A stretch of 64,000 nt of DNA, from contig JAGIBN010000002.1 of the NCBI GenBank assembly GCA_017744315.1, forward strand, positions 248,001 to 312,000, written 5' to 3'. A program made the position numbers and the translations under genes. The notes under the pieces were generated by a model, which was not told where the DNA came from, ran no database searches, and saw only the letters and a program-made list of their open reading frames with translations. The DNA comes from Porphyrobacter sp. GTDB taxonomy: Bacteria > Pseudomonadota > Alphaproteobacteria > Sphingomonadales > Sphingomonadaceae. Positions 50,991 to 53,638 of this stretch are shown here, in pieces; within the stretch, counting starts at the first letter, position 1; each line of letters opens with the position of its first letter.

Positions 50991-51160
50991 GTTTTTAAAT
51001 CCCCTTCGTCGGGCCGTGTGCGGACGGATCCCTTTTCAATTCTTGGTACAAGCGGTGTGACCCTGGCAAGCCCATTATGTTGATAAGGGGCTCCCTGAAC
51101 TCCGTTTATTCCCTTATTGTTGTGAAAAAGCTGCACTTCCGGCGCGTTACCGCAGTTTTG

Positions 51161-52246
51161 CTACAGAAGTTGCATCTGCCCGTCCAAAGAGGGGGGAACA
51201 AATTGGCCGGTATCGAGTTGGAGCCTGTCCGTTTCGATGCCCGCTCGCCTTTTTGCTATCCGAAAACGCGCCCGAAATAGGTCAGCCCAGACGCCACTAG
51301 GTCTCATCCTGCTGAAGAAACTTGGATCATTGTCTCGTCCACCGCGCATCGATTGAACGATTGCCATGACTTTGTCCCCGCGCTCGGGAAAATGGACGGA
51401 GAGCCACTCGCGAAACAGCGGTGCGACCTCGTGGGGAAGTCTCAGCGGAATCCATCCGATCGAACGAACGCCTATCGCTCCGACGCGAGACACGATGTCT
51501 TCCATGAACTCATCGGTGATGGCGGGTATGATCGGAGCGATCGAACAGTGCGCCGGCACTTTGGCCTCGACCAGCGACTTCAAGGCCGCGATCCGCTTCG
51601 TGGGAGCAGGCGCCCTCGGCTCGAGCATGCCCGAAAGCCGCGCATCGAGCGTGGTGACCGAGATAGCGACGGCTACGAGCTGAAGGCGGGCCAATTGCTC
51701 CAGAAGATCCAAATCCTTGAGGACCCTATCGGATTTGGTTGTGATGGTGACAGGATGGCGGGTCTCCAAGCACACTTCGAGCAATGACCGCGTGATCCGG
51801 TATCGCCCCTCGATGGGTTGGTAGGGATCGGTGTTAGTACCCATAGCGATGGGCTTGGGTCTGTAGCGAGGCCGGGCCAGCGTCTCGCGCAGCAACTGCG
51901 CGGCATTCGGTTTGGCAAACAGCCTGGTCTCGAAGTCCAGCCCTGGCGACAGGTCATGGAACGCGTGGCTTGGTCGGGCGAAACAGTAGATGCAGCCATG
52001 CTCACATCCCCGATAGGCGTTGATCGCGCGATCGAAGCCGATGTCGGGTGATTGGTTGAAGGTGAGTATTGTTTTCGGTCGCTCTTCGGTCACCGTGGTG
52101 CGCAGCTTGATCGGCGGACCGTCCAGGGTCTCCACGTAGTCCCGCCAATCGCCATCTTGCTCCCGTTGCGCGAGGCCGAAGCGGTCTGGGACAGAGGCCG
52201 ATTGGGCGCCACGGCCCTCAACTGCAGGATCTAGCCGGCGTTCCAT
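51161..52246 (-). CDS. PA0069-family radical SAM protein
   Basis: 361-residue radical SAM enzyme related to spore photoproduct lyase. The iron-sulfur site RGCEHGCIYCFARPSHAF has the CxxxCxxC spacing, followed by AMGTNTDPYQPIE, VTITTKSDRVLKDLDLL and a C-terminal SFFSRMRPSG region, as in the PA0069 family. The function is not established; a role in repairing a DNA lesion is a reasonable guess from the family and from the LexA box at its start. ATG 52246 has no ribosome site and lies six bases from the box; in-frame GTGs at 52285 and 52300 would precede the box. Confidence 0.9.
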   Translation of the reverse strand: MERRLDPAVEGRGAQSASVPDRFGLAQREQDGDWRDYVETLDGPPIKLRTTVTEERPKTILTFNQSPDIGFDRAINAYRGCEHGCIYCFARPSHAFHDLSPGLDFETRLFAKPNAAQLLRETLARPRYRPKPIAMGTNTDPYQPIEGRYRITRSLLEVCLETRHPVTITTKSDRVLKDLDLLEQLARLQLVAVAISVTTLDARLSGMLEPRAPAPTKRIAALKSLVEAKVPAHCSIAPIIPAITDEFMEDIVSRVGAIGVRSIGWIPLRLPHEVAPLFREWLSVHFPERGDKVMAIVQSMRGGRDNDPSFFSRMRPSGVWADLFRARFRIAKRRAGIETDRLQLDTGQFVPPSLDGQMQLL

Positions 52247-52251
52247 GGAAG

Positions 52252-52266
52252 GAACATACAGGGAAC
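52252..52266. promoter_or_regulatory. LexA/SOS box GAAC-N7-GAAC
   Basis: GAAC (52252-52255), seven bases ATACAGG, GAAC (52263-52266); on the minus strand GTTC-N7-GTTC, the alphaproteobacterial LexA consensus. It sits in the 20-base gap between two divergent starts (52246 and 52267), so LexA binding would block both. I found no second such box in the other intergenic regions of this window. Confidence 0.75.
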
Positions 52267-52647
52267 ATGAGTCGACGGCAATCACAGAAGTTGGCCGCAC
52301 GGCTGTCTTGCGTTCTTTCGACCGTGAGCCATACTCGCGGGATGGTCTGGGATCTGCGCCGCGCCATGCTCAAGAAGGAGGAGTTCGAGTCCGCTCGTCT
52401 AATGGACTTCGACTTCCGCCAGCGCGTGAGGGCCACGCGGCTGCTGGCGCGGGAGCTGGGCATCGAGGAAAGCGGCCTCGTGCGCGACACTGCGGTTCTC
52501 GAGCAGGATGCCCTGATCGATCTGACTGCCCAGAGGTCAGGGTGGGTCCGTCAGGAAGTCTCCGAACGGTATTCGCAATGCCTCTCCAGGGCGCGAGAGC
52601 AGCTCATCGCGGAAATTGGAGACCCAACCCCCAATCGCCTGGGGTGA
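52267..52647 (+). CDS. Conserved hypothetical protein, SOS-box controlled candidate
   Basis: 126-residue soluble, mostly helical, charged protein. Features are an Arg/Lys-rich start (RRQSQKLAARL), a middle segment KKEEFESARLMDFDFRQRV and an end GDPTPNRLG. No recognised domain, no signal peptide, no membrane helix. The ATG directly follows the LexA box, and AGGGA two bases upstream is too close to be a normal ribosome site, so the mRNA may be nearly leaderless. Its divergent partner is the PA0069-family radical SAM gene. Confidence 0.75.
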   Translation: MSRRQSQKLAARLSCVLSTVSHTRGMVWDLRRAMLKKEEFESARLMDFDFRQRVRATRLLARELGIEESGLVRDTAVLEQDALIDLTAQRSGWVRQEVSERYSQCLSRAREQLIAEIGDPTPNRLG

Positions 52648-52661
52648 ATGGAGAGTTTTCG

Positions 52662-53009
52662 TTACAGGTCGAGCAGGAAAACAGGCATGGCCGCGGCGAT
52701 TATAGCCAGTGCCTGCAGCGCCAGCATCTTCACCGTGCCTCTGGGATCACGCATAGACCATCGAACGGCGAACCATCCGATAACCGGCAATTGCAGGATC
52801 ATGAGCAGCTGCCACAGACGCGCCGTAGCGCTCTCGTCAGGACGCGCGACACCGTTTTCGACGACCATGTAAGGTTCGTGCGGACCGGTTGCGAGATAAG
52901 TGACCAGGAGGCAGGTAGCGGCCCCAGACATCAGCAGGGGAACCCATGCACTTACTGAACGCGAGGCCAAAGCTCTCCCGCCCTCAGCACCGTGTCTTTG
53001 GTTTTGCAT
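52662..53009 (-). CDS. Small membrane protein, unknown
   Basis: 115 residues with three probable membrane helices (VPLLMSGAATCLLVTYLATG, LWQLLMILQLPVIGWFAV, MLALQALAIIAAAMPVFLL). A polar N-terminus of about 25 residues precedes them. The start at 53009 has GAGGAG seven bases upstream; the open frame extends five codons further. It converges with the 126-residue hypothetical gene, 14 bases apart. No family recognised. Confidence 0.7.
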   Translation of the reverse strand: MQNQRHGAEGGRALASRSVSAWVPLLMSGAATCLLVTYLATGPHEPYMVVENGVARPDESATARLWQLLMILQLPVIGWFAVRWSMRDPRGTVKMLALQALAIIAAAMPVFLLDL

Positions 53010-53110
53010 CGTCCATCTCCTCAATCGAAGATGGCGACTGGTGCCTTCAACTCGGCATGAGCGTCATGAGGGGAGGGTGAGGTTTCCCTGAAAACCGTTA
53101 CGCCGGCGCG

Positions 53111-53638
53111 TCATTTCTCGCGGAGACGCGGCATCAGTTCGACGAAATTGCAGGGACGATTACGGCTGTCGAGCTGCTCTGCAAGGATGCCGTCCCACCC
53201 GTCCTTCACCGCGCCGTTCGAACCGGGCAGGGCAAAGATGTAGGTTCCCCGGGCAACAGCGGCACAGGCGCGTGACTGGACGGTGCTTGTGCCGATGCTC
53301 TTGTAGCTGATCCAGCGGAACAGCTCGCCGAAGCCTTCTATCTCCTTTTCCTTGATCCGGTTGATCGCCTCAGGCGTGACATCCCGCCCGGTGAGGCCGG
53401 TGCCGCCTGTCGAAACGATAGCGTCGACTTGAGGGTCGTCGATCCAGTTGTTGAACCGCCTGACGATCGCGTCGGCATCGTCCTTCTCGATGGCGCGCGC
53501 GGCAAGCTTGTGGCCAGCGCCTACGATCCGCTCGGCGAGGATATCGCCCGAGGTATCTTCATCCGGTCCCCTGGTGTCGGAAACCGTGAGAAGAGCGATG
53601 TTTATCGGTTTGAATTGACGCTCTAAATCGATCGCCAT
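53111..53638 (-). CDS. moaB: Molybdenum cofactor biosynthesis protein B
   Basis: MoaB/MogA-type protein of 175 residues. The molybdopterin-binding signature VSTGGTGLTGRDVTPEAI and the N-terminal LTVSDTRGPDEDTSGDIL are clear. MoaB acts in adenylylation of molybdopterin in some species, but the exact role varies. The ATG shares a base with the stop of the lytic transglycosylase gene (TGATG), and no other molybdenum genes are in the window. Confidence 0.93.
   Translation of the reverse strand: MAIDLERQFKPINIALLTVSDTRGPDEDTSGDILAERIVGAGHKLAARAIEKDDADAIVRRFNNWIDDPQVDAIVSTGGTGLTGRDVTPEAINRIKEKEIEGFGELFRWISYKSIGTSTVQSRACAAVARGTYIFALPGSNGAVKDGWDGILAEQLDSRNRPCNFVELMPRLREK

Follow-up and report, generated by a model that had tools for sequence, protein, structure and literature searches.

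The gene PA0069 was reportedly placed in the LexA regulon of Pseudomonas aeruginosa by Cirz in 2006. In alpha- and betaproteobacteria, LexA control has been predicted for splB, a homologue of the spore photoproduct lyase gene (section 8 of PMC3323433), and SplB (COG1533) has been described as SOS-regulated in several species (PMC8565304). Radical SAM proteins also occur in the SOS regulons of Gram-positive bacteria and Balneolaeota (PMC7739468) and in the LexA regulon of Streptomyces venezuelae (PMC9380542). These published SOS-regulated splB and radical SAM genes are likely to belong to the PA0069 family. LexA regulation of such a radical SAM gene belongs to a type of control already predicted in print, and a published LexA box of Caulobacter, GTTCttgttatGTTC, has the same GTTCN7GTTC motif as the box described below (PMC12700426).

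The box considered here lies in a stretch of 64,000 nucleotides from Porphyrobacter sp., termed the window. The locus is likely to combine a LexA operator that serves a radical SAM gene with a separate, zeta-like small gene, a neighbour that has a promoter of its own. Its features, with the two promoters given as putative, are as follows.

51161..52246, minus strand: PA0069-family radical SAM gene, 361 amino acids, with CxxxCxxC at residues 81-88 and a match to NF033668; start aligned in close relatives.
52252..52266, minus strand: LexA-type box, reading GTTCCCTGTATGTTC toward the radical SAM gene and conserved before its orthologues.
52253..52258, minus strand: TATGTT, inside the box, a -10-like element for the radical SAM gene, assigned from the promoter fit and the conserved inner columns of the box.
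52276..52281, minus strand: TTGCCG, a weak, possible -35 element of the radical SAM gene with a 17 bp spacer.
52267..52341, plus strand: 25-codon N-terminal extension of the small gene's reading frame as first described, probably untranslated.
52308..52313, plus strand: TTGCGT, -35-like element of the small gene; several homologues have TTGA at this place.
52330..52335, plus strand: CATACT, -10-like element for the small gene; its end lies 6 nt before the corrected ATG.
52342..52647, plus strand: small gene with corrected start, 101 amino acids, four predicted helices, zeta-like family, alignments A1 and A2.
52662..53024, minus strand: hydrophobic ORF of 120 amino acids, by eye a membrane protein.
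53111..53638, minus strand: moaB (TIGR02667), found upstream of the radical SAM gene on the same strand.

A preliminary description of this DNA had named the minus-strand gene a PA0069-family radical SAM gene, and this identification is borne out by the NCBIfam model NF033668, which the protein matches at 1e-128 with 429.3 bits, above the cut-off of 360, and by a Pfam Radical_SAM match at 6.7e-13. The protein resembles spore photoproduct lyase (SPL) in its radical SAM CxxxCxxC motif, but differs from it in that no SPL model is found among its five NCBIfam matches at E<=1. Likewise, no SPL chain is among the chains listed in a PDB profile search with the protein. SPL uses an extra conserved catalytic cysteine as hydrogen donor. 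Among 59 aligned PA0069-family sequences, the only cysteines conserved at the 97% level are the three of the Fe-S motif (C81, C85 and C88), and an extra conserved cysteine of the SPL kind is therefore absent from them. An AF2 model of the protein, built from two sequences, has a pLDDT of 36.

Like splB, the PA0069-family gene encodes a radical SAM protein and has a LexA-type site upstream in alphaproteobacteria; unlike the splB case, the window box overlaps a -10-like element and nearly touches the ATG. Between the end of this element, TATGTT, and the radical SAM ATG lie 6 nt. At the spacing of the possible -35 element, TTG is found in only 8 of 87 orthologues, and since this match is not conserved, the promoter of the radical SAM gene is treated here as putative. 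If the TATGTT promoter is right, a near-leaderless or leaderless radical SAM mRNA is plausible, because the -10-like element lies so close to the start codon; the earlier proposal that both divergent mRNAs are of this kind thus finds some backing for the radical SAM gene.

The start of the plus-strand gene was first placed at an ATG at 52267-52269. With the radical SAM ATG at 52246-52244 on the minus strand, this leaves 20 bases between the two start codons, and the box, which on the plus strand reads GAACATACAGGGAAC at 52252-52266 (GAACN7GAAC), lies in this gap as described. An ATG at the position of window codon 52342 is, in turn, found in 49 of the 52 named homologue loci, the exceptions being L199, L200 and L201. 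In the loci read, the 25 residues before this codon show no conservation, and a TGA is found there in the closest relative, G001. On these grounds the original reading of 126 residues was rejected: the small gene most likely starts at 52342, and its product therefore has 101 residues. The ATG-to-ATG gap is then 95 bases. The site of the box and its fit into the gap as then drawn hold from the earlier account; the plus-strand start and the length of the protein do not.

Between the box and the corrected start, the small gene probably has a sigma70-type promoter of its own. The window sequence, TTGCGT-N16-CATACT, has only 7 of 12 consensus bases. Among the homologues, sigma70-like sites with at least 8 of 12 bases that end about 6 nt before the ATG occur in 15 of 52 loci, compared to at most 4 in 200 shuffles. 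This promoter arrangement suggests that LexA probably does not control the small gene. Strong matches to the gene number 23 in 397 family genomes, and 33 matches are found at E<=0.001.

The small protein belongs to a family that is very probably related to the F1-ATPase inhibitor subunit zeta (PF07345, DUF1476), and this probable identity is the new point about the locus. Both proteins have about 100 residues, and the four helices predicted for the small protein compare to four in zeta (as given in part of PMC9317440). The two families share the core F-x(3)-A-R-x(2)-R-L-L, in which the window protein has V for the core A. In addition, an invariant Glu lies upstream of the core, E14 in the small protein and E12 in zeta; these were paired by eye, using the offset given by hhalign. 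An AF2 model of the small protein, made from 47 sequences, reaches a pLDDT of 86.9 and contains helices at residues 5-39, 43-50, 55-66 and 70-92. Other features set the small family apart from zeta. It is very divergent, its conserved GDPxPxRLG tail is absent from two zeta ORFs viewed to their ends, and it is sporadic, with a normal zeta gene elsewhere in the same genome. All five genomes that have a strong small-gene match and for which both searches were examined (G000, G008, G013, G016 and G017) contain such a normal zeta gene. In two Sphingopyxis loci (L164 and L182), the zeta-like gene is broken, with reading frames of 54 and 87 residues, as would fit a dispensable gene.

Profile comparisons point to this relationship. 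In hhalign, the small-protein family aligned with the zeta alignment at a score of 29.6 (E 8.4e-5, probability 60.5). None of 200 column-permuted controls scored above 23.1, and reversed alignments scored 9.4 and 10.1. When a profile of the small family was run against 5576 ORFs, 30 of them zeta, zeta ORFs made up 26 of the top 30 matches outside the family. This profile was built from alignment A2, which leaves out 6 of the 52 loci (L164 and L182, the broken ones, and L188, L191, L196 and L201), and the background of its ranking excludes L001-L008 and L150-L231, loci brought in by the small gene; the 86 small-family ORFs in the ranking include repeats of the same genes from several loci. In the reverse search with a zeta profile, the small family ranked first and supplied 16 of the 20 best matches outside the zeta loci, at E values of 0.29 or worse.

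The scores of single sequences are weak. PF07345 tops the Pfam list for family members, yet only 2 of 47 members match it, with E values no better than 4.5e-4, and for two further Pfam families 2 members match as well. An Azospirillum member matches PF07345 over residues 11-98 at E 4.3e-4 with 21.1 bits, below the gathering score of 25, and the window protein alone has no PF07345 match in Pfam. Nothing useful was returned by Pfam and NCBIfam for the protein in its first-described frame, or by PHROGs and Pfam for an alignment of 8 members. Structure comparison of the model with zeta chain 2ll0 gives a Z of 7.0 over 83 residues at an rmsd of 4.4, and unrelated helical proteins reach similar Z; chain 7vkv, also zeta, gives 4.8, a value that helical models commonly reach, and chain 2kzc, presumably a further zeta chain, gives 5.5, within the range of unrelated helical proteins. 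HAD-phosphatase caps score Z values similar to those of the zeta chains. In a PDB profile search, human SHP-2 chains (from 0.019) rank slightly above zeta (0.12), and Foldseek with the model found nothing at E<=0.001.

These weak single-sequence scores and competing helical matches are what would be expected if the small protein were unrelated to zeta and the likeness reflected convergence of amphipathic helices. We consider this unlikely: the profile signal is reciprocal and depends on residue order, and it exceeds the permuted and reversed controls as well as the background ORFs. Relationship to zeta is one thing and inhibition of the ATPase another; an inhibitory function of the small protein is held to be much less probable, and a repair role is unsupported. 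Passages of two papers on zeta evolution (PMC9317440, PMC10469736) make no mention of a second zeta family.

A further question is whether the radical SAM gene and the small gene form a pair. The preliminary description proposed that LexA represses both, as an undescribed, damage-induced repair module. Such shared repression, at least in the window's genus, has the arrangement of the DNA in its favour. The box lies between the two genes, and genomes G000, G001 and G005 keep an identical 15-mer together with the divergent layout. Among the small-gene loci examined besides the 52 named ones, these three, all from one genus, are the only ones where PA0069 adjoins the small gene, so that conservation of the box where the pair is kept extends to a single genus. 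In the same genus, G004 has the small gene and the PA0069 gene on different contigs, with no exact box in 3.3 kb around its small gene. Within the fetched flanks of the 52 loci (up to 3 kb on each side, with four loci shorter), PA0069 occurs once, in Croceibacterium selenioxidans, and this locus is also the only one of the 52 whose small gene has a box within 300 nt. Conservation of the operator, as would be looked for in a member of a LexA regulon, is thus not found for the small gene. Moreover, the corrected start follows the end of the box by 75 bases, and the -35-like element follows it by 41 bp. Shared SOS control was rejected on the strength of the homologue loci and the likely separate promoter, and we regard it as quite unlikely; the small gene, sporadic in its occurrence, would instead stand outside LexA control.

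Nor does the small gene have a conserved neighbourhood, a possibility rejected on the finding that, among the 17 largest clusters of neighbours listed, leaving aside the gene itself and the frame antisense to it, none is present in more than 9 of the 52 loci. An Rfam search of 51000-53500 gave 0 matches. The radical SAM gene, in turn, is preceded by moaB in the same orientation in 23 of 30 family loci, and within 400 nt in 14 of them. In G000, G001 and G005, the small gene and the 120-residue ORF sit between moaB and the radical SAM gene. The simplest history would be that the order moaB, box, radical SAM gene came first and that the small gene arrived later. Since the small gene is a local neighbour that resembles an ATP-synthase inhibitor, the two genes are probably not a repair module. 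The proposal of one also fares poorly because the small-gene profile favours ATP-synthase subunit zeta over repair proteins and because the small gene is sporadic.

The box is far more regular before the radical SAM gene. PA0069-family genes were found in 133 of 149 genomes of the window's taxonomic family, and 90 loci were taken from these 133 genomes, namely the best 30 and 60 picked down the ranking. One of these (L128) has no N-terminal match and was dropped, which leaves 89. GTTCN7GTTC is present on the gene's strand before 87 of the 89, compared to 0 of 728 control windows, which come from the same loci and almost wholly from the 30 longer ones. The zone allowed for the box ran from 140 nt before the start of the match to 12 nt within it, and distances were counted from the BLAST match start, not from a verified ATG. 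The two loci without an exact box are L105, whose box has one mismatch, and L120, which has no box. In the 87 orthologue boxes, the inner columns before the second GTTC are T in 82, A in 65 and T in 81. A class-wide search gave matches in 97 of 190 genomes, and among the 28 best-scoring new loci examined, 24 have the box within 300 nt, compared to 0 of 270 control windows scanned in either orientation. Two of the other four have a box with one mismatch and two have no box. One class locus, L232, belongs to the window's own family; outside that family the box is present in 23 of 27.

That the box is a chance match is extremely unlikely: the bare motif is common and therefore not significant (GAACN7GAAC occurs 3 times in the window versus 1.9 expected, a count reached by 25 of 100 shuffles, and 118 times in the genome versus 87 for the reversed pattern), but its conservation before orthologues in both the family-wide and the class-wide sets is significant and led chance to be rejected. 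Judged from these loci, the box is old and class-wide.

The genome of the window supplies further boxes of the same type. Both lexA and recA are present and each has one, at -45 and -91 respectively, as expected of a genome with a LexA regulon. A box is also found at -9 before a uvrD/pcrA-type helicase gene, which is a cut fragment, and at -32, in opposite orientation, before an ImuA-like gene, an assignment that is weak at 26.6 bits, below cut-off. When the own-genome boxes listed (100 of 118) were scored with a matrix built from orthologues of other genera, the window box came 4th. Taken with the conservation before orthologues, the boxes before lexA, recA and the helicase gene make a LexA-type site for the PA0069-family radical SAM gene well supported, and on this point the preliminary description finds support.

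Four other own-genome boxes were noted in passing. LexA-type boxes lie near an S24-peptidase gene (L131), between the genes of a DUF488 and a GH35 protein (L133) and upstream of a gene for an HTH protein (L137), each of them a possible SOS target. An SRAP-family gene (L143) has such a box 295 nt upstream.

The favoured reading, a LexA operator for the radical SAM gene beside an independent zeta-like gene, would work as follows. LexA bound to the box would cover the -10 region and block transcription of the radical SAM gene. After DNA damage, RecA-stimulated cleavage of LexA would free the promoter, and a near-leaderless radical SAM mRNA would be made. In the window's genus, the small gene and the second small ORF would have come between moaB and this LexA-type promoter. 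The small gene would be transcribed from its own sigma70-type promoter, probably outside LexA control, and its product, a divergent relative of zeta, may serve as a further, accessory brake on the hydrolysis of ATP.

On this reading, the supposed repair pair gives way to two separate facts. The radical SAM gene of the PA0069 family is a candidate SOS target with deep conservation, and new DNA-lesion chemistry may be worth seeking there. A divergent and patchy second zeta family would bear on how alphaproteobacteria limit the waste of ATP. A stronger form of the idea joins the two: a second zeta-type family of F1-ATPase inhibitors would exist in Sphingomonadales and a few other alphaproteobacteria, distinct from normal zeta, and would stand head to head with a LexA promoter in the window's genus, so that DNA damage would affect the radical SAM enzyme and ATP hydrolysis together. 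We consider this combination very unlikely.

A separate observation concerns PA0069 genes that are split. In five loci, L260-L264 (genomes G130, G156, G096, G135 and G122), the gene is cut within the codons of the Fe-S motif; the cut genes read GCEH, GCEQ or GCDQ and then leave PA0069-family sequence. The cut is followed by about 0.4-0.9 kb with varying ORFs, among which no integrase was seen by eye. Beyond this insert lies a complete PA0069 gene that has a LexA box of its own and whose diverged 5′ part reads NPFxGCEHGC or NGFSGCEHGC. The arrangement resembles a site-specific element bringing with it a replacement start for the gene. In G094, PA0069 lacks residues 84-167 at the site of these cuts. 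The junction pattern occurs at 15 places in 14 of 397 genomes, of which 4 are PA0069 junctions (G094, G096, G135 and G122) and 11 are other sequences.
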